Shown here in pieces: positions 1,278 to 30,793 of a stretch of DNA of 30,923 nucleotides. Each line of letters starts with the position of its first letter. Position 1 is the first letter of the stretch. The position numbers and the translations under genes were made by a program. The notes under the pieces are model-generated. The model saw only the letters and a list, made by a program, of their open reading frames with translations, had not been told where the DNA came from and did no database searches. Source of the DNA: a virus; the IMG/VR virus record IMGVR_UViG_3300025102_000165, positions 1 through 30,923 of that record. One strand, 5' to 3'.

Positions 1278-1395
1278 GCAGCTGCTCCTCTTTTATTATT
1301 TCACAAAACTTAAAATACGATAGTTGGTTAATTATTAAGTCCGGGTCTTTTTTTAATTCATTGTTTTTAAACTTTATTACATAAGCCCTAGACAT
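1261..1395 (-). CDS. small hypothetical protein
   Basis: 44 residues, MSRAYVIKFKNN onwards. The frame is open further upstream, but the ATG at 1393-1395 has a good GAGGAG ribosome site and overlaps the stop of the WhiB gene by 8 bp, so I choose it. The extra upstream codons would lie almost wholly inside WhiB. No domain is recognised. It bridges WhiB and the replisome-organiser-like gene, overlapping both, as expected for a translationally coupled early operon. Confidence 0.55.
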   Translation of the reverse strand: MSRAYVIKFKNNELKKDPDLIINQLSYFKFCEIIKEEQLHVDPC

Positions 1396-2110
1396 TCTTA
1401 TGCTCCTCAACAATTTGATGAGCAGAACGGATACCCAGTGCTTTCTTTTTATTTTCTCGCCAGGTTTTCTCATAAGCAACCATGCAACCCTTACACCAAG
1501 ACTTTAGACCACCAATACCTTTTGAACGCTTTGAGAAGTTAGCAGCATCCTGCCGAGTCTTGCATTTGCTGCAAACCTTTGAAACCAAAGAACCCCACTC
1601 ATTAAAGATAGGTGCAGCTGACGATTGTCGAACCCCAGCCTTTTTATTATCAACAATACAAGCAGCACAACGAGATTGACGACCACCCCAATCGTTGTTA
1701 TTTATTGGAATTTTATTAACACGACGATAACAAGACACGCAGCGACGACTCAATAACCGGCCATCACGATGAAACTGCGGTTCTAAATTATTAAACTCAG
1801 AGAACGCACGACGAATAGATTTATAAACATTAGATTGTAAGCTCATTTTTTGACGATTAAGTCCAGGCAAGCCCATAAAGCCTTGGTCATCTTTACGAAT
1901 AACAGAACTAGCAACACATTCAGGCATTACAGGACACCCAAGGCAGATAAGATGCGTCTCAAAATACTCGAAGTCGGTGTGTTCCCTTGGACTTCCTGGA
2001 AAAAATAACGAAGTTTTAGAGTCCCGGCAATTAGCACGCTCATACCAAGAGTCAAGAAAAGCAATTTCTTTAAATTCAATTACTAGCCGCCTGTTCATTT
2101 GCTTGCTCAT
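1388..2110 (-). CDS. WhiB-family iron-sulfur regulator with C-terminal zinc-ribbon extension
   Basis: About 240 residues. The N-terminal part carries the WhiB signature: cysteines at 28, 56, 59 and 65 (C-x27-C-x2-C-x5-C), expected to bind [4Fe-4S], followed by a GFMGLPGLNRQK segment where WhiB proteins have their G[IV]WGG turn and basic tail. WhiB proteins bind the principal sigma factor and act as regulators; they are confined to actinobacteria and their phages, so this identifies the host group. Unusually, ~120 further residues hold two CxxC pairs (124/127 with 148/151, 180/183 with 206/209). The second resembles the zinc motif seen in endonuclease VII-like phage proteins. The start could be 2110, 2098 or an upstream ATG at 2164; I chose one that limits overlap with the Rad52-like gene. 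Confidence 0.8.
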   Translation of the reverse strand: MSKQMNRRLVIEFKEIAFLDSWYERANCRDSKTSLFFPGSPREHTDFEYFETHLICLGCPVMPECVASSVIRKDDQGFMGLPGLNRQKMSLQSNVYKSIRRAFSEFNNLEPQFHRDGRLLSRRCVSCYRRVNKIPINNNDWGGRQSRCAACIVDNKKAGVRQSSAAPIFNEWGSLVSKVCSKCKTRQDAANFSKRSKGIGGLKSWCKGCMVAYEKTWRENKKKALGIRSAHQIVEEHKNV

Positions 2111-2510
2111 CAGTAATTTTATTATATAAGAAATACTCATCTCCGCACCACAAATGCAAACCAAGGCCTAAGTTCATAGCAGCCCTCTTGAACGCATCGG
2201 ACTCAGCATGCTTTAAATTAGAACCATTTGAACCTTGGTCTTGCTCAACATCACCAGCACCTTGAACAGAAACCAAATCCAAATCGCCAGGCATACGACA
2301 AGTTAAAGTACCAACGCAACCTGTTAACTTTCCATCTTGGTCAAAAATCTCACGATCTACCGACCAAGTGTAAAAACCAACAATCATCAACAGACGCTGA
2401 CGTACAACACCGTGAGTCACATAGCTAGCGTTGCCCTTTCCAGGTTTAATTTTTATATAATCCTTAGGAAAAGGAGTAGCTAACTCCTTTAATATTTTGT
2501 CATTTTTCAT
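2076..2510 (-). CDS. Rad52/Rad22-like single-strand annealing protein
   Basis: 144 residues. It matches the short phage and actinobacterial Rad52-like family: an N-terminal segment with KPGKGNASYVTHGVVRQRL, a central beta region (GCVGTLTCRMPGD) and the hallmark AESDAFKRAAMNLGLGLHLW near residues 110-130. Such proteins anneal complementary single strands in phage recombination and replication. A GGAGGG ribosome site lies 9 nt before the ATG, within the end of the upstream HTH gene, which it overlaps by 11 bp. No dedicated exonuclease partner is evident beside it. Confidence 0.8.
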   Translation of the reverse strand: MKNDKILKELATPFPKDYIKIKPGKGNASYVTHGVVRQRLLMIVGFYTWSVDREIFDQDGKLTGCVGTLTCRMPGDLDLVSVQGAGDVEQDQGSNGSNLKHAESDAFKRAAMNLGLGLHLWCGDEYFLYNKITDEQANEQAASN

Positions 2511-2673
2511 TTATTAGACCCTCCAAGTCAGAACGACGGATAAAAACACGACGAACACCCGGCAATTTAACTGACGGAAGTCGTCCATCTTTAACCATGT
2601 CATAAATAGTTGTTTTTGAAATTTTTAAAAGGTCAACTGCCTCAGCAATTGTTAATAAATTAGAGTCGCTCAT
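2500..2673 (-). CDS. helix-turn-helix excisionase-type DNA-binding protein
   Basis: 57 residues, MSDSNLLTIAEAVDLLKISK at the start. The body is a MerR/AlpA-like HTH_17 fold: helix TIAEAVDLLKI, turn, recognition helix SKTTIYDMVKDG, then the wing RLPSVKLPGVRRVFIRRSDLEGLI. This family includes phage excisionases and small regulators. It lies about 750 bp from the integrase, separated by a divergent promoter region, so a role as recombination directionality factor or as early regulator is plausible. It overlaps both neighbours (14 bp upstream, 11 bp downstream). It is also a candidate reader of the TAGATCCC sites, without direct evidence. Confidence 0.85.
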   Translation of the reverse strand: MSDSNLLTIAEAVDLLKISKTTIYDMVKDGRLPSVKLPGVRRVFIRRSDLEGLINEK

Positions 2674-3075: not shown

Positions 3076-3297
3076 ATGAACAACGAGCAAAAAATCCTTG
3101 ACTTCATAAACAGTTGGAAGTCAATACTTAAGAAAAGCGAGCTCGAGTCAGTCGTTGACACTTTACAAGCAGCAATCGATAACGCAGAAGTAAGTAGCCT
3201 CAAAGACAAGCAGGAAATAAGAAATAACACCATCAATAAAGCCTTATCTCAGCCAACAATACCAAAACAACCAAATACAGCAGAAATAGACAAATAA
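3076..3297 (+). CDS. lone rightward gene, hypothetical, candidate lysogeny regulator
   Basis: 73 residues and the only convincing plus-strand gene. Residues 1-52 look like helices (NEQKILDFINSWKSILKK, SELESVVDTLQAAIDNAE); the rest is polar and proline/threonine-rich. No helix-turn-helix is visible. No ribosome site precedes the ATG, consistent with leaderless expression from the promoter at 3041-3069. It sits between the divergent early operon and the 3' end of the integrase, the classical place for an immunity or maintenance gene. It may be part of the repressor system, but that rests on position only. Confidence 0.55.
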   Translation: MNNEQKILDFINSWKSILKKSELESVVDTLQAAIDNAEVSSLKDKQEIRNNTINKALSQPTIPKQPNTAEIDK

Positions 3298-3429: not shown

Positions 3430-4623
3430 TTATTTTAGTTCATCAGCCCATGCTGATTGGCCAGCAACAAGGTCATCATCAGAGATGTGAACGTAGGTGC
3501 GTAAAAATGTTTCGGGAGTTTGACCCAAAAGAGTTGCAGAAGTTCCAATAGGAACGTTTGCACGGTGTAGACCCGTAGCAACAGTATGACGAGTGGCATG
3601 AAGTCCCATATAACGGAAACCTCCCTGCTTACAATAACGCTTAAAAGCGGCAGTATAAGAATCAGGCACAACAGCTCGACCATTACCACGATGGAATAAC
3701 CACCCATCATTGGACCATAAATCACGGTCCTCATTATTTGAGTTCCAAGAACGACCATAGACCTCGCCTGAGTGACATCTCTCTAGGTGCCTTTTTAGTT
3801 CAGCAGTAGAGTCAACGTCAAGAGGAACCATACGGTTATGGTTTTTCTTAGAGCTAGACCCAACGAAGTCTACAGTACGTCCTCCATTTCTTACTTTTTC
3901 TACGTGTTTATTGACTGAAATAACGGCAGTAGAGCCATCGGCAGAGTACTTGATATCCTCAAGCCTAATGCCACAAAGCTCACCACGTCTAAGACCCGAA
4001 GTCAAAGCAAGATAAAAGAAAAAATAATCACGTCTAATGTTGTCATTATTTTTAATAAAGTGCAAGATCCCTCGAACTTCCTCGATTGAGTAAGCGTCTC
4101 GGTTAGTCTTTGGAATTTTTACACGAACAGTCGCCTTTTTTTTCATTGGATTAGTTCCCAGGGAGTTAGTCTCAACAGCCAACTCAAAAACAGAACTAAG
4201 AACACCCTGCAAGCGAGCAAGATAACCCTCAGACAAACCCTCAGCTCGTTTAATTTCAAGCCAACGGTTCAACATAACACTATCAATCTTTGTCATTTTT
4301 AAAGACCCAAAGTGCTCCATCCAATGATTGTCCAAATACATTTGATACTTTTTTAATGTTTCGGCACGCTCAACCTTAACACGGCAAGACGGCAGCCAAA
4401 CATTAAGACAAAAGGCTTTAAAATTAGTTTTATCAACTACGTGCTTTATGGTGCCTTTATTGACACCGTCAAGATATTCAGTAACAGACGCTTGAGCCTC
4501 ACCTTTAGTTTTAAAAGTCCCTGACCAAATTGTCTTATTTTTACCTTCAATAACTTCTTTAACACTAGCTTGATAAACTGTGCCTTTTTTACTTTCACGT
4601 TTACGAATATGAGTCCAAGCCAT
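3430..4623 (-). CDS. int: tyrosine integrase
   Basis: 397 residues, the usual size for phage integrases. An N-terminal arm-binding region (VYQASVKEVIEGKNKTIWSG) is followed by a core-binding helical domain (about 65-165) and a catalytic domain. Catalytic residues seen: Arg in TSGLRRGELCG, HATRH with His 342 and Arg 345, and the nucleophile Tyr 377 in FLRTYVH. The position usually held by His or Trp (LGH) is Gln 368 (LLGQTPET). Substitutions here are tolerated in some recombinases, but it is worth noting. The enzyme integrates the phage into the host chromosome. The attP site is probably within 3298-3430 or the divergent region, but I cannot identify its core. It overlaps the upstream gene by 1 bp (TAATG). 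Confidence 0.95.
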   Translation of the reverse strand: MAWTHIRKRESKKGTVYQASVKEVIEGKNKTIWSGTFKTKGEAQASVTEYLDGVNKGTIKHVVDKTNFKAFCLNVWLPSCRVKVERAETLKKYQMYLDNHWMEHFGSLKMTKIDSVMLNRWLEIKRAEGLSEGYLARLQGVLSSVFELAVETNSLGTNPMKKKATVRVKIPKTNRDAYSIEEVRGILHFIKNNDNIRRDYFFFYLALTSGLRRGELCGIRLEDIKYSADGSTAVISVNKHVEKVRNGGRTVDFVGSSSKKNHNRMVPLDVDSTAELKRHLERCHSGEVYGRSWNSNNEDRDLWSNDGWLFHRGNGRAVVPDSYTAAFKRYCKQGGFRYMGLHATRHTVATGLHRANVPIGTSATLLGQTPETFLRTYVHISDDDLVAGQSAWADELK

Positions 4624-4994: not shown

Positions 4995-5240
4995 TTAAAC
5001 CTCCCCTATAAGAGAACCCTCAGGAAACTCACCGTGCTCGTCAAGAACCTCATCAACATTCATGTCGTGAACTTCTAATTTAACAACCTTGTCAATTAGT
5101 TCTTTTTTATGTTTTAACTCAATATTTACTCCATACATAAGTTGATTACCTAACTCCTTGGCTTCTCGCCAATCACTAGCCATCACCTCGATAGTTGTAG
5201 GAAGTTCAACACTAAGAATAAATTTTTTATCTTTACCCAT
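4995..5240 (-). CDS. hypothetical early protein
   Basis: 81 residues, starting MGKDKKFILSVELPT. The frame is open 15 bases further upstream, but the ATG at 5238-5240 is preceded by GGAGG at the proper distance and overlaps the previous stop by 8 bp (ATGGGTAA), so it is the better start. It predicts a short beta-alpha-beta protein with an acidic C-terminus. Not recognised. Confidence 0.6.
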   Translation of the reverse strand: MGKDKKFILSVELPTTIEVMASDWREAKELGNQLMYGVNIELKHKKELIDKVVKLEVHDMNVDEVLDEHGEFPEGSLIGEV

Positions 5241-5544
5241 AGTGACCTCCGTCAATCCAATATTGAAGTGTCTCTTCGTCTAACTCATGTAATTTATAAA
5301 CAAATACAGTCTCGCCGTAGCCTTCCCATTTGAGCTTATAGTCAATCACATCAGATATGATACGAAAACCAACAACAGACATAGTGTCGGATTTTTTATT
5401 CACTGTCCTTTTGACAATAAAGTTAAACTTGGGAACGTTCATAAACATACTGAAGTCAATAGCTTCACTTCCACGTTTTGTAACTAACCCATTAGTTTCT
5501 AGTAGTGCCTTCTGTTTTTCAGTTGGCTTGATATTTTCGGTCAT
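5233..5544 (-). CDS. hypothetical early protein, first gene of the integrase-side operon
   Basis: 103 residues with an AAAGGAG ribosome site 5 nt before the ATG. The N-terminal part is helical and charged (PTEKQKALLETNG), the middle is beta-rich (KFNFIVKRTVNKKSD) and the C-terminus is acidic. No family recognised. It heads the leftward chain 5544 to 3430 ending in the integrase, behind a 400-bp repeat-rich control region. Confidence 0.6.
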   Translation of the reverse strand: MTENIKPTEKQKALLETNGLVTKRGSEAIDFSMFMNVPKFNFIVKRTVNKKSDTMSVVGFRIISDVIDYKLKWEGYGETVFVYKLHELDEETLQYWIDGGHYG

Positions 5545-5575
5545 TTTTCTCCTTTGTTGCTAACCAATAAATAAG

Positions 5576-5605
5576 ATTTTAACTCAAATCCCAGGGATCT
5601 GTCGC
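5576..5605 (-). promoter_or_regulatory. putative promoter of the integrase-side operon with a near-match TAGATCCC site
   Basis: Minus strand: GCGACA (5600-5605), 18-bp spacer, TAAAAT (5576-5581), 32 bp before the ATG at 5544. The spacer contains CAGATCCC (5594-5601), one base different from the TAGATCCC octamer, in the same orientation. The -35 match is weak. Confidence 0.35.
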
Positions 5606-5620
5606 ATTTTTTCTTTATTT

Positions 5621-5875
5621 TTTGGCTCAGTTTTGGCTCAGTTTGGCTCGGAATTATTGGAATTAACGGAATTATAGGAATTAACGGAATAACAAGACTC
5701 TAAAATTACCCCGTTTTCTTTCCGTTATTTCCGTTATTTCCGTACCGTCCGTACCGTCCGAAAAACACGGGGAGAGTAGGACACCACCGACCTTTTGCAG
5801 AATAAGCCAATAAAAGCAATTGATTGTTGCTTAAAACTGAGTCAAAAACAGCCAATTGGCTCAGATTTGGCTCCG
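5621..5875. repeat. iteron cluster: candidate replication origin or control region
   Basis: The gap 5545-5945 has no gene but is highly repetitive. Three TTTGGCTC(A/G)G copies lie at 5621, 5632 and 5642. Five perfect-phase 9-bp units, GGAATTATT, GGAATTAAC, GGAATTATA, GGAATTAAC and GGAATAACA, fill 5650-5694. Inverted TTTCCGTTA units lie at 5719 and 5728, a variant at 5737, then CCGTACCGT twice (5740-5757). The outer element returns inverted at 5837 (CTGAGTCAAAA) and direct at 5856 and 5866. Phased iterons with flanking inverted copies are typical of initiator-bound origins or multi-site operators. Confidence 0.65.
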
Positions 5876-5884
5876 TTTCAAAAA

Positions 5885-5940
5885 ACTAGGCACTTGTGAG
5901 CCTTTCTAAGCGTTTTGTAAAACAGCGTAGAACTGACACC
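5885..5940. repeat. intergenic repeat copy B
   Basis: CTAGGCACTTGTGAGCC then TCTAAGCG and an AT-rich stretch align with copy D (AGGCCACTGTAAGCC, TCTAAGCG). It lies directly after the stop of the minor tail gene and upstream of the leftward operon at 5544. It is the most diverged and shortest of the four copies. Confidence 0.5.
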
Positions 5941-5945
5941 CACAC

Positions 5946-7172: not shown

Positions 7173-9388
7173 TAAATTATGTCCAAAGCACTTATACGAA
7201 GTGGAAGTGGACCATTAGAACGCTGGAACTTTCTAAGTTGCTCGACAATTTCACGACCAATCTCAGAACCATCAGCACCCATGCCAGCGTTGACTGTTAT
7301 GTTTACATTTGAGCGGCCAAGGTTGTCGCCAGCTCTCGACAACGGAATCACAGCCTCAGGCCCACTCTCACCGATTAAAGCGGTCGTGGGTTGAGTTACA
7401 ATGCCACCCTTGGCCAAGCGTGGAATATTTGGGATGTCAGGTGGGTCAATATCGATACCAAAGAACGAAAAGCCCAGGCCTGAATTTAATGAGCTGATAA
7501 AGCCGTTTAATTTGTCAATAACTTTATTAAATACAAACTTAACACCCTCAAATACAACACCCGCTGAAGTTTTTAAAACCGTTGAAATAGTTTCTAGTAA
7601 ACCCTTACCGAAATCTTTTAACTTAGGAACGATGAAATCCTTGACTTTTTTCAAACCATCAATGATGACACCAGCTAAAACTTTTACAAAGTCCCAGCTG
7701 TTTTTGAAAAAATCCAGCAGATCCCTAAAGATACCTTTAAAACCATCAACAGCCAACGAAACATCGCCAGTTAATAAACCAGTTATAACCTTTACAACAG
7801 ACTCAAAAAAACTTTTTAATCTATTAAACACCTCAGTGACTTTTAAAACAGCAGACTCAAAACCAGCCTGAAACCCCTCGCCCTTAAAGAAGTTAATAAA
7901 ATTAGAAAATAAGTTTTTTAGAAACGCTATAGAATTAGTAACAAAGTTTCTAAAACCCTCAACATTATCAAATGCAAAACGGAAACCAGCAGCCAAAGCA
8001 GCAACAGCTCCAAGAATTAATACAAAAGGACTAAACAAAGCAGCAACAGCCGTAGCTAAAGATACAACAGATGCAAGCAAGATACCGCCAATAATTGTAG
8101 CCAAAGCAGTAAAAGCAACCTTGGGGTTTTCTTTTATAAAGGCCCGGATGCGTTCAAAAACAGGAGTCAACCTCTCCTCAAGCTCCTCAAATGCCGTACG
8201 AATATTTTTAATTAAACCAAGAAATTGCTCCGAACCAATGAACGCACGAACAGCATCACTAAACTCCTGAACCTTAGGTTGGAGTCGTTCAAAAACACCT
8301 CGAGCTTTATCAATAAAATCTAAAAGAACCGGTGCTAATTTTTGGCCAATTTCAATTACAAACACATTAATACCCGCTCGAATTTTATCAAGGACAAGAC
8401 CGATACCAGACGCACCAGTTTGAAAAGCAGCATCCGTAGCACCAACAGCCTCACCAGCCGCCTTAATTTCCTGTGCAAACTTTTCAGCACCCTTACCAGT
8501 TAAAACTTGAGCAGCACCCGCAGCCTCAACAGAACCAAAATAAGCAGACAAAGATACACCACTAGAGTCTGCGTCTTTTTTAATTAAATTAAGAGCGTCA
8601 GCAACATTTCCGCCTTCAGCAATAAAAGCAGCAAAATCCTTGCCCGCAAGCTCCTTGAATTTTTTTGAAATAACAGTTGTTGGTTTGGACAATTCAGCAA
8701 AAACAGCACGCAACTGAGTCGCAGCAACAGAAGTAGGAGTACCAGCCGCCGTCAAAGTTGCAAGAGCAGCAGTAACATCACCAAACTCAACACCAAGACC
8801 AGCAGCAACAGGTGCAACCTGGAATAGGGATCTAGACAATTCATCGACCGTGGTCTTACCACCTTTAACAGCCGTAAAAATTAAATCGCTTGCCTTTTCA
8901 AAACTTACAGCCTCCGGACCAAAAGCATTGACAACAGAAGTCAAGCCATCAACAGCAACACCTAAATCAGTAGCACCACCAACAGCCAACTTATTAGCAG
9001 TTTCTAAAAACGCAAAAACATTATCAGGCGGTACACCAGCAGATAAAGAGTTATAAAGTGAGGGGATGACCTCCTCAGGCAAAACACCAATGGCTTTTGA
9101 AGTTGAGAGAACATCAGCCTGCATGGTGTCCATTGCAGCTTTAGAAATGCCAGGCATAAGAGTAAAGACCTCAAGCATTCCATCCTCAAAAGCACGAAAC
9201 TCGCCGATTGCTTTAGTTGCAACAGCACCAGCAGCTAAACCCATACCAGCAAAAACTTTATTTATTTGACCACCGACTCGGTTCATGTCTTGACCTAAAG
9301 CGTCAAACTTTTTTCCAACAGCTCCAACCTTGCCTAGAAATTTTTTAGTGTCGGCAAGAAATTCAAACCTTAATGTTTTCTTTTCCAT
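7172..9388 (-). CDS. tape measure protein
   Basis: 738 residues, the longest gene of the tail module. The N-terminal domain resembles the TP901 phage tail tape measure family (FEDGMLEVFTLMPGISK, then SLYNSLSAGVPPDNVFAFLE and repeated Ala/Gly-rich helices). The middle has hydrophobic segments (VAFTALATIIGGILLASVV, FSPFVLILGAVAALAAGF) that could cross the host membrane during ejection, and the C-terminus carries AKGGIVTQPTTALIGESGPE, common in tape measures. Using the usual ~1.5 angstrom per residue, the tail would be about 110 nm. It follows the tail assembly chaperone and one extra gene. No lysozyme domain is visible. Confidence 0.93.
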   Translation of the reverse strand: MEKKTLRFEFLADTKKFLGKVGAVGKKFDALGQDMNRVGGQINKVFAGMGLAAGAVATKAIGEFRAFEDGMLEVFTLMPGISKAAMDTMQADVLSTSKAIGVLPEEVIPSLYNSLSAGVPPDNVFAFLETANKLAVGGATDLGVAVDGLTSVVNAFGPEAVSFEKASDLIFTAVKGGKTTVDELSRSLFQVAPVAAGLGVEFGDVTAALATLTAAGTPTSVAATQLRAVFAELSKPTTVISKKFKELAGKDFAAFIAEGGNVADALNLIKKDADSSGVSLSAYFGSVEAAGAAQVLTGKGAEKFAQEIKAAGEAVGATDAAFQTGASGIGLVLDKIRAGINVFVIEIGQKLAPVLLDFIDKARGVFERLQPKVQEFSDAVRAFIGSEQFLGLIKNIRTAFEELEERLTPVFERIRAFIKENPKVAFTALATIIGGILLASVVSLATAVAALFSPFVLILGAVAALAAGFRFAFDNVEGFRNFVTNSIAFLKNLFSNFINFFKGEGFQAGFESAVLKVTEVFNRLKSFFESVVKVITGLLTGDVSLAVDGFKGIFRDLLDFFKNSWDFVKVLAGVIIDGLKKVKDFIVPKLKDFGKGLLETISTVLKTSAGVVFEGVKFVFNKVIDKLNGFISSLNSGLGFSFFGIDIDPPDIPNIPRLAKGGIVTQPTTALIGESGPEAVIPLSRAGDNLGRSNVNITVNAGMGADGSEIGREIVEQLRKFQRSNGPLPLRISALDII

Positions 9389-12214: not shown

Positions 12215-12424
12215 TTACTTTCTAAAGCCGATGGTTAATAACCAAAGACCAAGCGATATAAGTATAGCAACACCAACTATATCCTTAGCGGTTCCGGTTA
12301 AGGTTAACCATGCAATAAAAAATCCTAAGAGCGTAAAAGTTTGAGCAAGAGTCTCCTGCAATATACTTTTAATCCACTTAAAAATTTTAATTTTTTTAAG
12401 CAGCCCTAATAATTTTTTTATCAA
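12215..12424 (-). CDS. small membrane protein, possible second holin
   Basis: 69 residues from a TTG start preceded by AGGAGG. A basic amphipathic N-terminus (KKLLGLLKKIKIFKWIKS) is followed by two hydrophobic helices (FTLLGFFIAWLTLTG and IVGVAILISLGLWLLTIGF). It overlaps the end of the acidic protein gene by 4 bp and precedes the transglycosylase-like gene. Class II holins have this shape. Since a clearer holin sits at 14367, this could be a second holin, an antiholin or a spanin-like helper. Confidence 0.6.
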   Translation of the reverse strand: MIKKLLGLLKKIKIFKWIKSILQETLAQTFTLLGFFIAWLTLTGTAKDIVGVAILISLGLWLLTIGFRK

Positions 12425-14361
12425 TTTATCCTCCTAAACGGCACAACACTAGCCGAGATAATCTGACTAGCAATAATAACGGGAACGACAACCTCCTGTG
12501 CCTTTTCTTTTTGTTGATTGGTTAAGTCATCGCCCAAACCAGCAAAGCTAATCTCCTCAAAATCCACCTGAAAAATTACGGCTGGATTTTCAAGAAACTC
12601 CTCAACCTGAACCTCAACAACAACATCAGACAAGTTGTAATCCTCAACTTCTTTATTCTCAACAGCACGCTCGACAAAAGTGTCAACCGCCTCAGCAACA
12701 GCCTCGTCAGTTTTAACAGCTTCAGCAATTACAGCAACATCATCAGACTCCTCAAGACCAAGAACTTCAGCAACCGTCTCGACCTGCTCCTCGGTCAATT
12801 CCTCAACATCATCGATAGCAGACTCAACAACCTCCTGGACAACAACAACCTGCTCCTCGGTCAATTCCTCAACACCAGCGTCGACAACGTCCTCGATTAT
12901 TTCCACCTTCTCAGTTTCCGTCAAAGTTTCCACATAGACCTCAACGACCTCCTCGATTTCATCCTCAGTAAGGTCCTCGATTATTTCCTCAGGGATTTCA
13001 GGAATTTCATCCTCGACAATTTCAATTGACTCAATGACTTCAATAACAATCTCAGCGATTTCATCGTCAACCTCCTCAAAGACTTCATCCTCAAGGTCTA
13101 ACTCAACAACCTCGACAATTTCATCAGAATCAAAATCCTCAATAATTTCTGGCAGATCTAAAACATTTTCATCCTCCTCTACAATTATAAGAACGATGTC
13201 ATCTGGAAATTCAATGTCATCAAGCTCTAGGACTTCCTCCTCAATAATAAAGATGTCAAAGTCAGTCTCCTCAAGCTCTTGAATAACATCAATAAACTCT
13301 TGGAGGTCCTCCTCCTCAAGGTTTAAATCCTCAAGGTCAATAGACTCCTCAAGTTCCGCTAAAATTTCAGCCTCAGCTTGAGCCTCAAGCTCCTCCAGGT
13401 AAATTTGATATTCAATTTCCTCACGGACCTCACGCTCCTCATCAGTTTCAAAAAATCCAGTTTCCTCAAAGTTAGCATCTAGCTCAGCTTGATACTCAGC
13501 CTCCTCACGCTCAAACCTTTCATCATCAGTTTCTAAATAACCAGTCTCATCAAAGTTGGCCTCCATTTCCTTATTTAAAGCCTCCTCAGCAGCAATACGA
13601 GCAGCCTCCTCCTCAGCAGCAATACGAGCAGCCTCCTCCTCAGCAGCAATACGAGCAGCCTCCTCCTCAGCAGCAAGACGAGCAGCCTCGGCTTCAGCAG
13701 CCTCACGGTCGGACCTTTCCTGGTTAGTTTCAAGAATTCCAGTCTCAGAAAAATTATTATTTCTTTCAATTGTCAAGGGATCTAAAGTAGTGGTGGTCGT
13801 GGTTGAAGTTGTTGTGGTTGAAGTGGTTGTGGTTGAAGTGGTTGTGGTTGTTGGAGTTCCAAAAGTCCAAAAAATATCATCAACAATAACATAGTCATCA
13901 TAAACAATCTCAACAGAAGTAATAAATTTGTCAGTAACCGAATGCGTTATATTTTCAAACATAGTCGCAACATTCGCATTGGACTGAGCGTCATAATTTT
14001 CAGTAACAGAAGTTGAATCGCTGTAGTTCCAAGTGACCGAATAAGCATCATTAACGCAGCCTGATAAGAAACCAGCAGAACTAACACTTGACTCAGGAAA
14101 AGTCATGGTCAAAACAGCATCGTCAACATTCTGCATATTAAAATGAACAGCCTGAGAACTTGAACCACACTCACCGGAATGAATATCTAAACGGTTCCAG
14201 GACGCACCACCATAGTCAAAAGTAAGACTGGTCTGATTTTGACCATCATCAGCAATACGCTCGTAAGTTGTTGATTGATTAGCCAATGCCGGGTAAGGAA
14301 AAACTAAAAATAAAACAAGTCCAATACGAACTAAAGTATTAAATTTATGAACGAAGTTAAT
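12421..14361 (-). CDS. very acidic secreted repeat protein with lectin-like N-terminus
   Basis: About 645 residues. Order: signal peptide (LVRIGLVLFLVFPYPALA, cleavage after ALA), a ~140-residue beta-rich domain with conserved Cys and Trp and a VDDIFW end, a Thr-rich linker (~20 residues), four AARIAAEEE-type 9-residue repeats, three copies of an NF.ETG..ET..ER motif, ~300 residues dominated by Glu, Asp, Val and Ile, and a hydrophobic C-terminal segment (EVVVPVIIASQIISASVV). The signal peptide is in frame only upstream of the TTG at 14284-14286. The frame opens at 14361 with an ATT, 9 nt after AAGGG, and has no ATG, GTG or TTG in between. Initiation at ATT, or a sequence error, would explain this. 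It lies inside the lysis block; a cell-surface or virion-surface role is possible. Confidence 0.75.
   Translation of the reverse strand: MNFVHKFNTLVRIGLVLFLVFPYPALANQSTTYERIADDGQNQTSLTFDYGGASWNRLDIHSGECGSSSQAVHFNMQNVDDAVLTMTFPESSVSSAGFLSGCVNDAYSVTWNYSDSTSVTENYDAQSNANVATMFENITHSVTDKFITSVEIVYDDYVIVDDIFWTFGTPTTTTTSTTTTSTTTTSTTTTTTLDPLTIERNNNFSETGILETNQERSDREAAEAEAARLAAEEEAARIAAEEEAARIAAEEEAARIAAEEALNKEMEANFDETGYLETDDERFEREEAEYQAELDANFEETGFFETDEEREVREEIEYQIYLEELEAQAEAEILAELEESIDLEDLNLEEEDLQEFIDVIQELEETDFDIFIIEEEVLELDDIEFPDDIVLIIVEEDENVLDLPEIIEDFDSDEIVEVVELDLEDEVFEEVDDEIAEIVIEVIESIEIVEDEIPEIPEEIIEDLTEDEIEEVVEVYVETLTETEKVEIIEDVVDAGVEELTEEQVVVVQEVVESAIDDVEELTEEQVETVAEVLGLEESDDVAVIAEAVKTDEAVAEAVDTFVERAVENKEVEDYNLSDVVVEVQVEEFLENPAVIFQVDFEEISFAGLGDDLTNQQKEKAQEVVVPVIIASQIISASVVPFRRIN
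13577..13681. repeat. 27-bp coding tandem repeat
   Basis: Three near-identical 27-bp units (GCAGCCTCCTCCTCAGCAGC then AATACGA; the last has AAGACGA) at 13601, 13628 and 13655, preceded by a 24-bp copy at 13577. They encode the AARIAAEEE repeats. Near-identity in DNA suggests recent slippage expansion. A triplet-repeat tract for the Thr linker lies at about 13788-13858. Confidence 0.85.
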
Positions 14362-15370: not shown

Positions 15371-16096
15371 TTAATATTCATAAATTGATTTCCAATTATC
15401 TTGATGAAATCTATTAATTTTTTGATATTCAATTTCTTTCTCTTCACCAGGAGTCATTGACCTTACAATTATATTATCTTTTTCTGTCCTTCTTTTGATT
15501 GGTACAATATGGACTAAAGGGTCCCCGGCTTTAACAATAAAGCTGCCTTTGCCTTTAATTTCATTATAAAATTCAAATGGAAAATTAGTCTCATGCCAAT
15601 AATCGCTTTCAACTATTCCAGGTAAAAATCTTATGTTTTTTCTAAACATATAAAACGGGTCACTGAAATATAATGAATAACCCTCTGAAACTTTAAAATA
15701 GTATGGACTTGTTAACTTTAAAGCACCAACACGACCCTCAATGTTAAGGTCCATGTGCTCAGTTTGAAATGAATTGTGAGGTTCTAAATAATTTTTTATT
15801 GGAACTTCAGTAGCTTTACGAATAGGCATATCATACTCGAACGTGTCGACGTCCCATCTAAAATAAATATCAGACCACGCCGGAATTATTATGCCTTCAT
15901 TAATTACGTTTCTAATTGCTGGACATTTCTTAGCGTGATTATTTCCGCTTTTAAAATAAAATTCAGTATCCTGTCTTGATTTAGTTATTTTTATTTTTTT
16001 ATACCAATCAGGCAGGAATTTATTTGCTGCTTTTGGTGGATATTTTTCAATTAACTTTGAAAGTTTTTCATCTCTAATTAATAATTCAATTTTCAT
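15371..16096 (-). CDS. hypothetical protein, paralogue of 16086-16811
   Basis: 241 residues. No signal peptide or membrane segment. Seen: PDWYKKI near residue 30, KKCPAIRNVINEGIIIPAWS (about 56-75), DIYFRWD, a KLTSPYYF block and YSLYFSDPFYMFRK followed by LPGIVESDYW. Similar patterns (KKC..., a G-I-I-P-x-W-x-D motif) occur in uncharacterised marine phage proteins; this is from memory. The neighbour at 16086 has the same length and block order. The pair is clearly more AT-rich than its neighbours, which suggests acquisition by transfer. Function unknown; position beside fibre genes hints at virion decoration or host-surface modification. Confidence 0.65.
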   Translation of the reverse strand: MKIELLIRDEKLSKLIEKYPPKAANKFLPDWYKKIKITKSRQDTEFYFKSGNNHAKKCPAIRNVINEGIIIPAWSDIYFRWDVDTFEYDMPIRKATEVPIKNYLEPHNSFQTEHMDLNIEGRVGALKLTSPYYFKVSEGYSLYFSDPFYMFRKNIRFLPGIVESDYWHETNFPFEFYNEIKGKGSFIVKAGDPLVHIVPIKRRTEKDNIIVRSMTPGEEKEIEYQKINRFHQDNWKSIYEY

Positions 16097-16811
16097 TTTT
16101 TCGTACCCGGATGTACCTGTTTTTTTTGTAACTTAACAATTTTGTCATTTTTTGATTATATTCATCTTTTTGTTTTTGATTTGCAACTTCAATTCTAACG
16201 TCATCAGCGTCAGGAAAAAATAACTGCATTGCACCATCTCCATTTAAAAGTTTTAAATTTCTTTCATACGGCTCAATCATTACATTAAGCTGTGGAACAT
16301 ATTTACAATCGTACATACCAGGAACTACCTCGTAAGCTCTTTGATATTCATAAAATGGATTTAGCAACATCATACGGTTGCTTACATCACTTGAAATAAA
16401 AAATGGTGCTTTTAATTTTACTGCCGTTAAAGTTACAATTTTTTCTAATGCTTTTGATGGAACATAGTCATAATATTTATAACTTTCAAAGTGTGAACCA
16501 GCATTAGAGTCAACAGCTCCATGAGTGCTTATGCTCACATCATAGTCATATTTATTTATGTCATAATTAATATTTATATCTGCCCACCATTTAAGCAGAA
16601 AAGTGTCATCCAAAAATTCATAAATGCCACCGCAACCCTTGAAAGTTTTGTAATTTATTTCGTGACCTTGAGTAATTTCATTTTTTGGTGCGTGAAGTGG
16701 AATATCTTTAAACCAACTAGGCCTGCAATTTTTATAAGGTTCAACAACTTTATTGTCTAATAAAAATTGTTCATCAGCAAAAATATAAACAATATTTTTC
16801 TTTTTAAACAT
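16086..16811 (-). CDS. hypothetical protein, paralogue of 15371-16096
   Basis: 241 residues overlapping the downstream paralogue by 11 bp. Matching blocks in the same order: RPSWFKDIP (PDWYKKI in the other), KTFKGCGGIYEFLDDTFLLK (the KKCPAIRN region), WADININYD (WSDIYFRWD), VKLKAPFFISS (LKLTSPYYFKV) and LLNPFYEYQRAYEVVPGMYD (FSDPFYMFRK...LPGIV). A local duplication followed by strong divergence fits best. The 55-bp gap after 16811 is almost pure A/T. Function unknown. Confidence 0.65.
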   Translation of the reverse strand: MFKKKNIVYIFADEQFLLDNKVVEPYKNCRPSWFKDIPLHAPKNEITQGHEINYKTFKGCGGIYEFLDDTFLLKWWADININYDINKYDYDVSISTHGAVDSNAGSHFESYKYYDYVPSKALEKIVTLTAVKLKAPFFISSDVSNRMMLLNPFYEYQRAYEVVPGMYDCKYVPQLNVMIEPYERNLKLLNGDGAMQLFFPDADDVRIEVANQKQKDEYNQKMTKLLSYKKNRYIRVRKNEN

Positions 16812-26250: not shown

Positions 26251-27695
26251 TCTACAATACCAATATTTGAATCTTCAGGTGGCCTAGTTGGAAAAGTTAA
26301 ACGGTCCAAACACATGACCATAGCAATTGCCCCGTCAATTTTTCGCTTGCTTTTACCTTTTGATAAACGAAAACCACGGTCAGTAGGACGAGAAACAGCA
26401 GACAAAACCTGGTCATTAAAAGTGCTTTGATTTTTATGCTTTAATTTTTTTGAAGTGACAAGCTCATAAGCCTGACCACAAGCAGGAACCATCCGGCCAT
26501 GGGATTGAGGAAACTCAACCATTGGTACATTTTGGTCATACAAAGCCTGAGCAGAACGCTCAAAGAACGCCGGGTCATAAGCAACCTCAACCAAGTTAAA
26601 CTCACGGTTTAAATTAACTAAAAATGTTTCAATTTCAGCATAGTCAAACATTACGCCGTCATTCCTCCAAATTTTTGAGTCAACATAAATCATGCCGTCC
26701 TCATTCATTTGACCCCAAACAACAGCAACAGAATCATGCTTGATAGCCATGTCAACACCAACATAAGTAGGAAGTGCAGGGTCTAATTTTATTGATGAAT
26801 CAGCAAGCTCAGACCAAAGACCATCCGGCAGCCAAGACTCATCCTGGGTCCGGGTCCACATGTTAAGATGGTAGCGTTGAAACTCCGGAAGTGGCAGTGC
26901 AGCACGACGACGGCGTAGGTTTTCAATTGGCCACCAACCACCCTCAAGTGCAGGGTTGACTTTCCTCCAGGTTTCCTCATTTTCAAAATCGTCTTTTTCA
27001 TCAGGCTCCAACCAATAGAAATAAAAATCGGGATCTAAAGACTCGCCTGACTTTTTACGCTTACCACGCAGATAAAGACGACCACAAAGAGTGTCCAGGT
27101 CATAACCAGCAGTTGTAATATTTAAGATAAGTGAATCCTTACGCTTAGCCGTGTTATTAGAGAGAACATAATGAACACGCTGCAAGTTAGGAGTTGACCA
27201 TTCGTGAACCTCATCAGCAATAAAAGCTGAGTTTCGGCCACCGTCAGCTGTTCCAGCTTTAGCAGCAACACGATAAACACGACCCGGTCCATTTTTTACA
27301 CCTATTGAATTTTGATAAACCTCGGTTATTTTTTTTAAGTAAGGCGACTGCTCACACATGCTCCTCATATTTCCAAAGACAATGTCAGCTTGCTCAAAGC
27401 TAGCAGCAGCAACCGTCACAAGCGGGGAAGTGGTGCCGTTGCCCAAGAGTTCATAAAGACCCAACGCAGAAATCAATGCACTCTTGCCGTTGCCTTTTGG
27501 AACACCAAGCAAAGCCTCACGATGACGACGCTGCCCGTCTTTATTTAACTCGTATAAATCATAAATTATTTTTCGCTGCCATTGGTCAAGACGGAACGGC
27601 TGACCATAAAAGTCACCCTCACCATGAACGCAGAAATTCTCAATAAACTTGACGACACGAGCTCCACGAGTCTCAGGTAAAACAATTTTACTCAT
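26244..27695 (-). CDS. terL: terminase large subunit
   Basis: 483 residues. ATPase: Walker A GVPKGNGKS (64-72), Walker B AFIADE (157-162) followed by VHEW. Nuclease: VGVDMAIKHDSVAVVWGQ, with the first acidic residue of the RNase H-like fold, then VEVAYDPAFF and a C-terminal segment with DGAIAMVMCLDRL. It pumps DNA into the prohead and cuts it. It overlaps the methyltransferase upstream by 4 bp and the membrane protein downstream by 7 bp. Confidence 0.95.
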   Translation of the reverse strand: MSKIVLPETRGARVVKFIENFCVHGEGDFYGQPFRLDQWQRKIIYDLYELNKDGQRRHREALLGVPKGNGKSALISALGLYELLGNGTTSPLVTVAAASFEQADIVFGNMRSMCEQSPYLKKITEVYQNSIGVKNGPGRVYRVAAKAGTADGGRNSAFIADEVHEWSTPNLQRVHYVLSNNTAKRKDSLILNITTAGYDLDTLCGRLYLRGKRKKSGESLDPDFYFYWLEPDEKDDFENEETWRKVNPALEGGWWPIENLRRRRAALPLPEFQRYHLNMWTRTQDESWLPDGLWSELADSSIKLDPALPTYVGVDMAIKHDSVAVVWGQMNEDGMIYVDSKIWRNDGVMFDYAEIETFLVNLNREFNLVEVAYDPAFFERSAQALYDQNVPMVEFPQSHGRMVPACGQAYELVTSKKLKHKNQSTFNDQVLSAVSRPTDRGFRLSKGKSKRKIDGAIAMVMCLDRLTFPTRPPEDSNIGIVEW

Positions 27696-28846
27696 TCCTC
27701 CTCCAATAAACTTAAATCAAAAACCATAGTTCCAAGCTCATCAGCACGTTTTATGAGTCGACCAACAAGCTCTGCACATTCAGGAACTACAGCGTTTCCT
27801 AATGCTTTTAATTTGTCAACACGACCAGGGTATTCATCTTTAGACCGTGGCATTCCATACTCCCACAAGTCATAACCCTCCTCAAAATAAATTTTTGGGT
27901 CCTCGGCTAAATTTTTCTTTGGATTATTACCTTCTAATATTCTTTTAGTGCTTGGACGGTTAGAACTTGTGATGGGAGTGCTAAACTTTTGAGTATTACC
28001 AATCCAAACATTAACTAATCCAAGTCGAGCCATCCATCTGGGTAGCCCATAAGCCGTGCCACCCATCCATAGTTGAGCCTCCGACCTATTAGTTTTTTGT
28101 TGCGTTCCCCCACGTCCATCTCTAGAGTCGAGCCGTGCTTTTTGTTTTTTACGCTTGGTGCCATTTGATTTATTGGTTTGCTGGCCTGACTTGCTCTCGG
28201 AGTCGACCAGTTCCCTGTCACCTTGGGATTTTCTCTCAAGTTCCCCGTTGACGTTCTCCTTGTGTTTTTTGTCACGTCCCCTCGATGCAGAGCTTTTATA
28301 TAAGCGTCTCCCGTCCTTGCCGGCAAGTGGTCCATGGTGTTTGGAGTCTCCCAACGTCCCGACTCCAAAGAATCGCTTGCGTAAGTGTGGACCACCAACG
28401 GACCTAGCTGAAATAACCTGCCACTCAAATCTATATAACCCGCTCTCGGCAATATCTTTGAGAACTCTGTTGATTGCTTCGCCTTTATTTGCTGTAAATA
28501 TCCCCGGGACATTTTCCACGAGGAAGTATCGCGGTCGTAAATCATTGACAAAACGCCAAACTTCATCCCATAACCACCTTTCATCATTAAGACCCTTTTG
28601 ATTACCAGCAACAGATACAGGCTGACATGGAAAACCAGCCGTTAAAATATCAATCGCAGGCAGATCTAACGGGTTTATATTCTCTACCTTATCATTAATT
28701 ATTAAACTATTCTTAAAATTTTTACGCAAGACCGTGCAGCAATACTCATCCATTTCAATCATCCACTCGTGAGAAGTTGCAAGACCCGCACGCTCAAGAC
28801 CATACTCGAGTCCACCAATACCAGAAAATAAACTTCCAACTCTCAC
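27692..28846 (-). CDS. DNA (cytosine-5) methyltransferase
   Basis: 384 residues with the ordered C5-MTase motifs: motif I VGSLFSGIGGLEYGL (3-17), motif IV GFPCQP with catalytic Cys 74, motif VI ENVPGI (111-116), motif VIII-like GGPHLRKRFFGVG, a variable target region, and motif X ALGNAVVPECAELVGR near the C-terminus. It would methylate phage DNA against host restriction. Its placement between the small and large terminase genes is unusual, with 4-bp overlaps on each side. No cognate restriction enzyme lies alongside, so it is a solitary phage enzyme. Confidence 0.92.
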   Translation of the reverse strand: MRVGSLFSGIGGLEYGLERAGLATSHEWMIEMDEYCCTVLRKNFKNSLIINDKVENINPLDLPAIDILTAGFPCQPVSVAGNQKGLNDERWLWDEVWRFVNDLRPRYFLVENVPGIFTANKGEAINRVLKDIAESGLYRFEWQVISARSVGGPHLRKRFFGVGTLGDSKHHGPLAGKDGRRLYKSSASRGRDKKHKENVNGELERKSQGDRELVDSESKSGQQTNKSNGTKRKKQKARLDSRDGRGGTQQKTNRSEAQLWMGGTAYGLPRWMARLGLVNVWIGNTQKFSTPITSSNRPSTKRILEGNNPKKNLAEDPKIYFEEGYDLWEYGMPRSKDEYPGRVDKLKALGNAVVPECAELVGRLIKRADELGTMVFDLSLLEEE

Positions 28847-29355
28847 TCTTCCTCCAGGAGTTCTAATATTCGTGGGTCAGTTGCAGGGTCCTCGCTCGCA
28901 TTTAACAAATCATTGATAGACGCAAGAGAAGTAGCAGCCTCACCAACTGCAATACCAAGCCGTTGGCGAGCCATTGGAGTTAAACCCAACTCATTCTCAA
29001 GCCTTAAAATCTGCGTTTCAAGTTTTAAAGCATGCTCAGCCAACGGGTTAGTTCTTATTTGACCAGTTGAACCACGAACCACTAGAGATTTTTTAACAAC
29101 TTTTTGAACCCTGGCATATTGGTCATACATTCCAAACAGACGCTCGACCGCTGGTAGGTCAACCTTTTGAGCTACACCAGCAACATCAGAATCCCAATAC
29201 TCAAACCAACGGTCCCGTGTTTGTTTTAACCAGCCACGGGTAGGTTTTGGTGGCGAGGACTTAAGCTCACTTGAGCCTGAAATTATTTGTAATTCTCTAG
29301 ATCTATGACCCTGAGCGTCCTCAGGCGGCTTTGCAAGCGGCCCCCGTTTACCCAT
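28843..29355 (-). CDS. terS: terminase small subunit
   Basis: 170 residues from the ATG at 29353-29355, which has AAAGG 8 nt upstream; a GTG nine bases further upstream is open but would lie on that site. It resembles P27-type small terminases: GKRGPLAKPPEDAQGHRSRE at the start, a central helical block (ERLFGMYDQYARVQKVVKKS), NPLAEHALKLETQILRLENE and the conserved LGLTPMARQRLG. It recognises the packaging site and stimulates the large subunit. It overlaps the upstream methyltransferase stop by 8 bp. Confidence 0.88.
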   Translation of the reverse strand: MGKRGPLAKPPEDAQGHRSRELQIISGSSELKSSPPKPTRGWLKQTRDRWFEYWDSDVAGVAQKVDLPAVERLFGMYDQYARVQKVVKKSLVVRGSTGQIRTNPLAEHALKLETQILRLENELGLTPMARQRLGIAVGEAATSLASINDLLNASEDPATDPRILELLEEE

Positions 29356-30793
29356 CCGCCGCACCTTTAAGGTGCTTTATTTCCTCATCAGGATAAGCAG
29401 CAGCAAAACGCTCAACAATGACATCACAATAAGCAGGGTCAAGTTCAATCGTGTAACACTTACGACCAAGAGCCTGACAAGCAATAAGAGTAGAACCGGA
29501 ACCAGCAAAAGGGTCAAGAACTAAGTCCCCAGGCTTACTTGAATATTTTATAGCACGAGATAAAAGCTCCAGGGGTTTCATAGTTGGATGCTCCTTATTA
29601 TTTCTAGGCTTCGGCACATTCCAAACATTTGACGGACCCCAAACTAAGTCAGCAATATTAAAATTACGAGTACCCTCAATGAAATTAGAGTCAGGCCTTG
29701 AGAACATGCCAAGACTAAGGTCGCTGGGTTGAGCAGCGTTAATATTGTTAAGCAGTTCCTCAGCCTTGGCGTTCTCGTTTAGCTCAACAGTTAAATTAAA
29801 ACCCGAGTCAAAAGTGTCAAGCTGGCCGGAACCAATAGAAGTCGCCTCCAGGTCATCCCAAACATTTGAGATGTCACGCTTACCAATAAAATAATGAGCC
29901 TTTCCTTCAGGCCAGCCATACATTATAGGCTCAAACCTCCAGTGAAAATCAGAACGACCCAGCACAAAAGTGTCCTTGACCCATATTATATTGGACGAGT
30001 AATGCATTTTCGCTTTATCCCAGGCCTCAAAGACTGAACGAGTTGCAGCAGTTGCGTAAAACATATAAACAGCACCATCAGTAAACGCATGAATTAAAGA
30101 TAAAGAATCATAAAGAAACTTAGTAAAACTATCCTCGGCCATTTTATCGTTTTCAATTGAACGGCCGTGGACATCCTTGTAGTCAACATTATACGGTGGG
30201 TCAGTTAGACAAAGAGCAGCCGGACCTTTTAAACCATAGAACGAACGAGCCTCAGTAGCAGAACCACAAACAAGCCAATGCTCACCTAAACGATAAACAT
30301 CGCCCGGCTTGGTTTCGGGATCTAAAGGCCTCTCGCCAATTTCGCCCTCATCAGGAAGTTCAGCCTCAATACCTAACAACTTCTCAAGGTCAGCTAAATC
30401 ATAACCAGTAGCGTCAAGCATTGACTCATCAACAGCAACACGCTCAAGCATTTCAGCCAAAGCAGAATCGTCATAAGTTCCAAGGTCAGCCGTTCTATTA
30501 TCGGCCAAAGCAAAAGCCTCAGATACCGATACATCCTCATCGACAATTGACGCAGCAATATGAGTCCAGCCAAGTTTGATAGCAGCCAACAATTGATGGT
30601 TGCCTGAAATTACAATTAAAGAACCATTTGACTCACGACGAGCCACAATAGGCTTACGCTGGCCAAACTTCTCATAGCTTTTGACAACAGCCTCAACATT
30701 GCCTCGCCTAGGATTTCCAGGCAAAGCCGTAAACTGATCGATTGGCGTAGCCAAACTTTTTAGGTCGTCAATTATTTTATGTTTAATTTGCAT
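29348..30793 (-). CDS. ParB-like domain fused to DNA N6-adenine methyltransferase
   Basis: 481 residues. Residues ~14-140 are a ParB/Srx-like domain (ALPGNPRRGN, then VISGNHQLLAAIKLGW with GNHQLLA where ParB has GxxRxxA). Residues ~160-475 are a beta-class N6/N4 methyltransferase: DPPYN (198-202) before FAGSGST (429-435), the order that defines the class, then IELDPAYCDV. This fusion is common in actinophages and prophages. It would modify phage DNA, with a possible target-binding ParB part. It is the first gene of the late operon, with a GGGGGA ribosome site 9-10 nt before the ATG. Confidence 0.93.
   Translation of the reverse strand: MQIKHKIIDDLKSLATPIDQFTALPGNPRRGNVEAVVKSYEKFGQRKPIVARRESNGSLIVISGNHQLLAAIKLGWTHIAASIVDEDVSVSEAFALADNRTADLGTYDDSALAEMLERVAVDESMLDATGYDLADLEKLLGIEAELPDEGEIGERPLDPETKPGDVYRLGEHWLVCGSATEARSFYGLKGPAALCLTDPPYNVDYKDVHGRSIENDKMAEDSFTKFLYDSLSLIHAFTDGAVYMFYATAATRSVFEAWDKAKMHYSSNIIWVKDTFVLGRSDFHWRFEPIMYGWPEGKAHYFIGKRDISNVWDDLEATSIGSGQLDTFDSGFNLTVELNENAKAEELLNNINAAQPSDLSLGMFSRPDSNFIEGTRNFNIADLVWGPSNVWNVPKPRNNKEHPTMKPLELLSRAIKYSSKPGDLVLDPFAGSGSTLIACQALGRKCYTIELDPAYCDVIVERFAAAYPDEEIKHLKGAADG

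Follow-up and report, generated by a model that had tools for sequence, protein, structure and literature searches.

What purpose is served by a gene-free gap that carries two facing arrays of short repeats, bracketed by copies of a further repeated element, close to the integrase gene of an uncultured phage? The window (the whole stretch of DNA analysed) is a 30,923-base virus record with phage structural genes and a tyrosine integrase on its left, and nearly all of its genes run leftward. The repeats sit in the gap 5545–5945, which lies between leftward genes and is non-coding, as an earlier note made from the letters had stated. That note read the region as an iteron origin of replication or a multi-site operator controlling the integrase-side genes. 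The comparisons described below lead us to a different reading, which we consider likely: that 5620–5875 is the attP of a temperate actinophage, with integrase arm sites, a core derived from the 5S rRNA gene and two opposed excisionase arrays.

Repeat anatomy of the gap

The features of the region, in order along the window, are as follows.

5620–5630, plus strand: TTTTGGCTCAG, putative P-arm integrase arm-type site 1, a direct 11-bp repeat kept in relatives
5631–5641, plus strand: TTTTGGCTCAG, putative second P-arm arm-type site of the integrase, 11 bp on from the first
5642–5651, plus strand: TTTGGCTCGG, a third, weaker left copy, which among the relatives only L010, the closest, shares with the window
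5645–5689, minus strand: left array of five 9-bp units, predicted excisionase sites (shuffle test, relatives)
5690–5719, no strand: linker separating the opposed arrays, about 30 bp in the window
5720–5764, plus strand: right array of five 9-bp units (TTCCG/GTCCG), predicted excisionase sites
5769–5792, plus strand: GGGGAGAGTAGGACACCACCGACC, predicted attP core, a 24-bp block of which 21 bases match an actinobacterial 5S rRNA at its 3' end
5837–5846, minus strand: TTTGACTCAG, an inverted copy with one mismatch, whose conservation in relatives is not clear
about 5855–5864, plus strand: ATTGGCTCAG, putative P'-arm arm-type site 1, +83 from the core in all relatives
about 5865–5875, plus strand: ATTTGGCTCCG, putative P'-arm arm-type site 2, +94 from the core in all relatives

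The arrays are oriented toward each other, with GGAA units on the left (TTCC on the minus strand) and TTCC/TCC units on the right. In the left array GGAA begins at 5650, 5659, 5668, 5677 and 5686, a pitch of exactly 9 bp; the earlier description of five in-phase GGAATTA units is correct for four of them, but the fifth reads GGAATAA. The right-hand units start at 5720, 5729, 5738, 5747 and 5756. These too had been described as five inverted units, and five there are at the 9-bp pitch, all of them sharing TCCG, but the exact form TTTCCGTTA occurs only twice. When the region was shuffled 300 times with dinucleotides preserved and scored for tetramer runs at any fixed period of 7–12 bp, the longest run was three copies, compared with two runs of five in the real region. 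One further run of five in the window falls in repetitive coding sequence at about 12.7–13.2 kb.

The bracketing element had been counted as three copies on the left and, on the right, two direct and one inverted. The count stands, with the third left copy the weaker, but the unit, taken before as 10 bp, is best defined as the 11-bp repeat TTTTGGCNNNN (TTTTGGC-type), which lies outside both arrays. P-arm site 2 follows 11 bp past site 1 in every relative that extends to the P arm. The right direct copies TTTGGCTCCG, of TTGGC type, are likewise 11 bp apart and come after a spacer of about 60 bp from the core block. Paired 11-bp repeats occur at fixed positions on the P' side in nine phages and on the P side in eight. 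Their final four bases differ among phages (TCAG, TCGG, TCCC, CGAC, CACC) and are largely common to the copies of one phage on both sides of the core, which fits sites read by one protein.

A candidate core and its conserved surroundings

Adjoining the right array is a block that was absent from the earlier description. Twenty-one of its nucleotides, GGGAGAGTAGGACACCACCGA (5770–5790), reproduce exactly the 3' end of the 5S rRNA gene of Actinomyces oris. In a relative, L009, the equivalent block agrees at all 21 nt with the end of an Arthrobacter 5S gene, at the same place as the window's match. Both bacterial genes were confirmed with Rfam RF00001, and the model match stops 2 nt past the 21 nt. 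A permissive Rfam scan of the gap itself returned nothing but a chance microRNA match, the 5S segment probably being too short for the 5S model. Eight of the nine distinct phages keep GGGGAGAGTAGGACAC unaltered, at integrase identities down to 71%, and the terminal 5S stem bases within the core differ between phages, as variation of host 5S genes would give. A copied 3' end of a host RNA gene next to an integrase gene typically marks an attachment core, a rule established with tRNA genes (PMC3861242, for example).

A tyrosine integrase, as expected of an attP, is encoded near the site. The two proteins that matter for this reading are given here.

3430–4623, minus strand: tyrosine integrase with arm-binding domain (Pfam Phage_integrase 5e-17, Phage_int_SAM_3, Arm-DNA-bind_4)
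2500–2673, minus strand: predicted excisionase (RDF/Xis) of BldC/HTH_17 type, 57 aa (Pfam, NCBIfam, PHROG and fold matches)

The HATRH and TYVH motifs of the integrase are invariant across six relatives. Just downstream of int, 3076–3297 (plus strand) is a gene-like rightward ORF among leftward genes, with a similar ORF at 7368–7565 (minus strand) in L003; at this place L012 has two opposite-strand ORFs, one XRE-like HTH, and the position may be an immunity locus.

An integrase search gave seven contigs at 80–96% identity and two partial ones at 71–73%. A pattern search with the 5S block brought in L021 and L025, and one with the right array L083; after near-identical records had been merged, nine distinct attP regions were available, the window included. 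Further integrase and excisionase scans yielded no records beyond this set. The earlier note had made its reading depend in advance on conservation of the repeats in relatives, and the layout is kept in all nine phages: core, right array and P' repeats are present in each, and the left arms and left array in eight, the ninth record (L083) ending before them.

Positions were counted from the initial G of GAGAGTAGG, window base 5772, taken as coordinate 0. On this scale all nine regions have the right array beginning at −52 and the two P' repeats at +83 and +94. Among relatives reaching them, the P repeats are found at −151/−140, −150/−139 (one at −150) or −141/−130, and in every relative that extends there the left array, five 9-bp units, begins 29 bp after the first P-arm site. 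The left module shifts as one rigid unit, by 0, 1 or 10 bp, the maximum being close to one helical turn; correspondingly, the linker measures about 30 bp in the window and the longer-form relatives and about 20 bp in the others, roughly one turn less. The 58-bp spacer (+24 to +82) retains only 46% identity with no net change of length. A layout so fixed despite a diverged spacer is what would be expected of selection by a nucleoprotein complex of fixed geometry.

We also ran the arm-array pattern TTTTGGC-N4-TTT-N5-GGAATTA over 2.9 million viral contigs. It matched the 5S-core phages and 21 others, which are coding-like and have no arrays, arms or core; the layout was not seen with a different core in this collection. 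Records L039–L059, L082, L084 and L085 were set aside as matching the pattern while lacking the layout, and L019 as carrying a core-like match situated outside any such layout.

The WhiB gene, the 5S match and a terminase similar to those of actinophages, among others, point to a probable host among the Actinomycetota. The terminase is 33% identical to that of Pontimonas phage phiPsal1, whose annotation lists no integrase. A 20-nt core query had no exact match in a genome collection of 84,980 species (one genome per species), an integrase-alignment scan of the same collection found no relative, and neither the viral nor the genome contigs showed an attL or attR junction. Because metagenome-assembled genomes frequently lack rRNA operons, the absence of a host attB match is weak evidence. 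One record, MT835585, was rejected as a 5S-integrated prophage: it starts inside a 5S gene, but the adjoining proteins look cellular (polyprenyl-synthase-like, for example).

Several other genes of the window deserve mention. The WhiB-like domain (Pfam 8e-8) lies near the start of a 258-aa protein (1388–2164, minus strand) and is followed by cysteine-rich, zinc-ribbon-like segments; this long fusion is unusual and is kept in L003 and L012. The first genes past attP (5233–5544, minus strand, in the window; 4601–5053 in L003) share about 15 N-terminal residues, MTENIKPTEKQKALL, and then diverge, suggesting module exchange directly beside attP. Elsewhere on the minus strand are a very acidic, Thr-rich protein of 621 aa with EEAARIA repeats (12421–14286), two neighbouring 241-aa proteins of low GC (30–35%) that are possibly paralogues or recent acquisitions (15371–16811), and, judged by eye, an ORF resembling cytosine-C5 DNA methyltransferases (27692–28846), next to the gene for the large terminase subunit, and a ParB-like/methyltransferase-like ORF (29348–30793).

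The predicted excisionase and the 9-bp arrays

The ORF at 2500–2673 matches Pfam HTH_17 (1.1e-14, 54.8 bits against a cut-off of 27) and several excisionase families of PHROG; with NCBIfam TIGR01764, 'excisionase family DNA-binding protein', it scores 48.7 bits against a cut-off of 28.8. It is present in the window and in all five relatives whose records run far enough beyond int. An AlphaFold2 model of moderate confidence (mean pLDDT 76) had BldC–DNA complexes (probability 0.96, E 0.02) and Pukovnik Xis as its first Foldseek matches, with high rmsd; given the poor global superposition, the fold match is support for the assignment, not proof. Likeness to BldC is clear by family profile and weak by direct sequence comparison (E 0.6–0.8). 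Known RDF sites more often have a pitch of 10–11 bp, and two opposed arrays of five are unusual. BldC forms head-to-tail multimers on DNA with one protomer per 9-bp direct repeat (PMC5859096), and RDFs in general occupy, cooperatively, tandem repeats spaced by roughly a helical turn, bending the att DNA (PMC7498355), so a 9-bp array within an attP suits an excisionase of this kind.

Comparison of the arrays between phages provides a link to the protein. Over 75 units the consensus is TTCC(G/A)NNNN, and the fifth base is phage-specific. It is G in 8/10 units of the window and 9/10 of L016, and A in nine of the ten units of L010 and of L012 and in all ten of L011. The recognition helix reads SKTT-x-Y-D in the window and L016, and SKSS-x-Y-E or SKSS-x-Y-Q in L010, L011 and L012; residues 21 and 25 are accordingly T/D with TTCCG arrays and S/E or S/Q with TTCCA arrays. 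In the HMMER alignment to 6ama/6amk, residues 21 and 25 of the window's protein correspond to Lys26 and Arg30 of BldC, its two base-contacting residues. The association was first noticed in four phages, and the L011 helix, read later, agreed with it. A perfect 2-versus-3 split among five phages has a 1 in 10 chance if the two characters are independent, and we regard the co-variation as suggestive. Two of the cases are not what shared ancestry alone would predict: L010 has an integrase 96% identical to that of the window, an excisionase 64–67% identical and arrays of the A type, and the L011 excisionase is 80–83% identical to the window's yet combines the SKSS/E helix with A-type arrays. The attP regions of L025 and L028 have mixed fifth bases; these are truncated records without the excisionase gene.

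How far could other readings account for the same repeats? The operator proposal came close but was incomplete, since the arrays are most likely bound by the excisionase within attP. In its stricter form, in which the arrays are operators for a transcription regulator acting on the int operon (leftward, 5544 to 3430) and are unrelated to recombination, it is unlikely, although the arrays are situated 100–220 bp ahead of the first leftward gene, some HTH_17 proteins act as regulators (PHROG 66 is described as 'excisionase and transcriptional regulator') and the RDFs of P4 and KplE1 repress int (PMC7498355). The distance of the arrays is fixed to the 5S core and the arm repeats, not to a gene start; the window and L003 have different downstream genes while the attP geometry is constant, and the promoter match is at chance level only. 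By analogy with P4 and KplE1, it is plausible that the excisionase additionally regulates the leftward int operon. We think it improbable that the integrase or a host architectural protein occupies the arrays and that the excisionase works at some other place. That the right array ends beside the core would suit such an arrangement, as would the position of the excisionase gene, some 3 kb from attP and not adjoining int, which counts against the excisionase reading that we prefer. Between the window and L010, however, the fifth base changes from G to A with near-identical integrases and clearly diverged excisionases, and the 9-bp pitch is that of BldC.

Two further readings seem to us very improbable. 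Short in-phase direct repeats in an AT-rich gap, and a match of 843–1277 to a replication-initiation family, would fit an iteron origin bound by that initiator; against this, GC skew is negative throughout the window with no switch at the repeats (5.6 kb), the initiator-like gene is 4.4 kb away, and an origin leaves unexplained a core identical to the end of actinobacterial 5S genes and the paired arm repeats, a layout specific to integration. An equally remote alternative is a functional hairpin, of DNA or RNA, made by the two opposed arrays. The inverted arms 5666–5689 and 5720–5743 are 83% complementary, but outside the shared GGAA/TTCC letters complementarity is 34% within a phage compared with 32% between phages, with no co-variation.

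Proposed mechanism and known attachment sites

From the anatomy of the site and what is known of the protein families, we infer that the integrase binds the 11-bp pairs and the excisionase the 9-bp arrays. The integrase (3430–4623) would contact the core, use its arm-binding domain to hold the TTTTGGCNNNN pairs, and recombine the attP core with the 5S rRNA gene of the host; the 3' end of that gene would be restored by the phage. Phages that target tRNA genes restore the tRNAs on integration, and the 5S rRNA gene is essential and often multi-copy. For excision, the BldC-like protein (2500–2673) might polymerise head-to-tail along each array, one protomer per repeat, so that two filaments running in opposite directions would bend the P arm and let the integrase span the distance from arm to core; regulation of the leftward int operon may be a second role of this protein. 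Narrowly, we favour the fuller account in which this actinophage lineage integrates at the 5S 3' end and uses opposed BldC-type filaments, the recognition helix and nearly all ten units having changed together from TTCCG to TTCCA.

If this is true, the 5S rRNA gene joins the targets of phage integrases, and the core sequence lets uncultured actinophages be paired with their hosts. The five phages would then represent a natural experiment in co-variation of an excisionase and its DNA sites, within an RDF family whose specificity is hard to define, and the regular 9-bp array opens the BldC filament model to direct testing in recombination. A full-text literature search of partial coverage returned no report of phage integration at a 5S rRNA gene, and cases may already be known.

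The closest parallels to the proposed protein–DNA assembly come from regulators and directionality factors of related fold. BldC of Streptomyces is, like the phage excisionase as modelled, a small wHTH protein with an HTH_17-like fold, and it binds 9-bp direct repeats with AT-rich parts as head-to-tail filaments (PMC5859096), as proposed here for the phage system. Equivalent positions of the recognition helix appear important in both. BldC is, however, a chromosomal developmental regulator; it has Lys26 and Arg30 where the phage excisionases have Thr/Ser and Asp/Glu/Gln, and its repeat is AATTXXXX(C) rather than TTCC(G/A)NNNN. Pukovnik Xis (PDB 4j2n) and RdfS (PMC11963761) are recombination directionality factors with a wHTH, and the predicted phage protein belongs with them structurally. 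The sites of RdfS have no visible consensus (PMC11963761), whereas each phage unit carries a strong TTCC motif.

Among attachment sites, those of lambda, L5/Pukovnik and 186 are built from parts like the ones proposed here: a core taken over from the host target (probable in the present case), direct arm-type repeats paired to its left and right, and RDF repeats in tandem in the interval from arm to core, the phage encoding an integrase together with an HTH excisionase. They differ in that their targets are tRNA or protein genes, whereas the candidate core here is the 3' end of the 5S rRNA gene, and in the RDF repeats, which have a pitch of 10–11 bp in 186 and are organized here as two opposed arrays of five at exactly 9 bp. 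A marine actinophage fragment attributed to Ca. Actinomarina is similarly uncultured and also combines a WhiB gene with a link between integrase and att site (PMC3861242), but its 43-bp att matches tRNA-Val and not 5S rRNA (PMC3861242). Overall, the proposed machine is of a known type, set apart by its probable 5S target, the 9-bp pitch and the doubled, opposed arrays.
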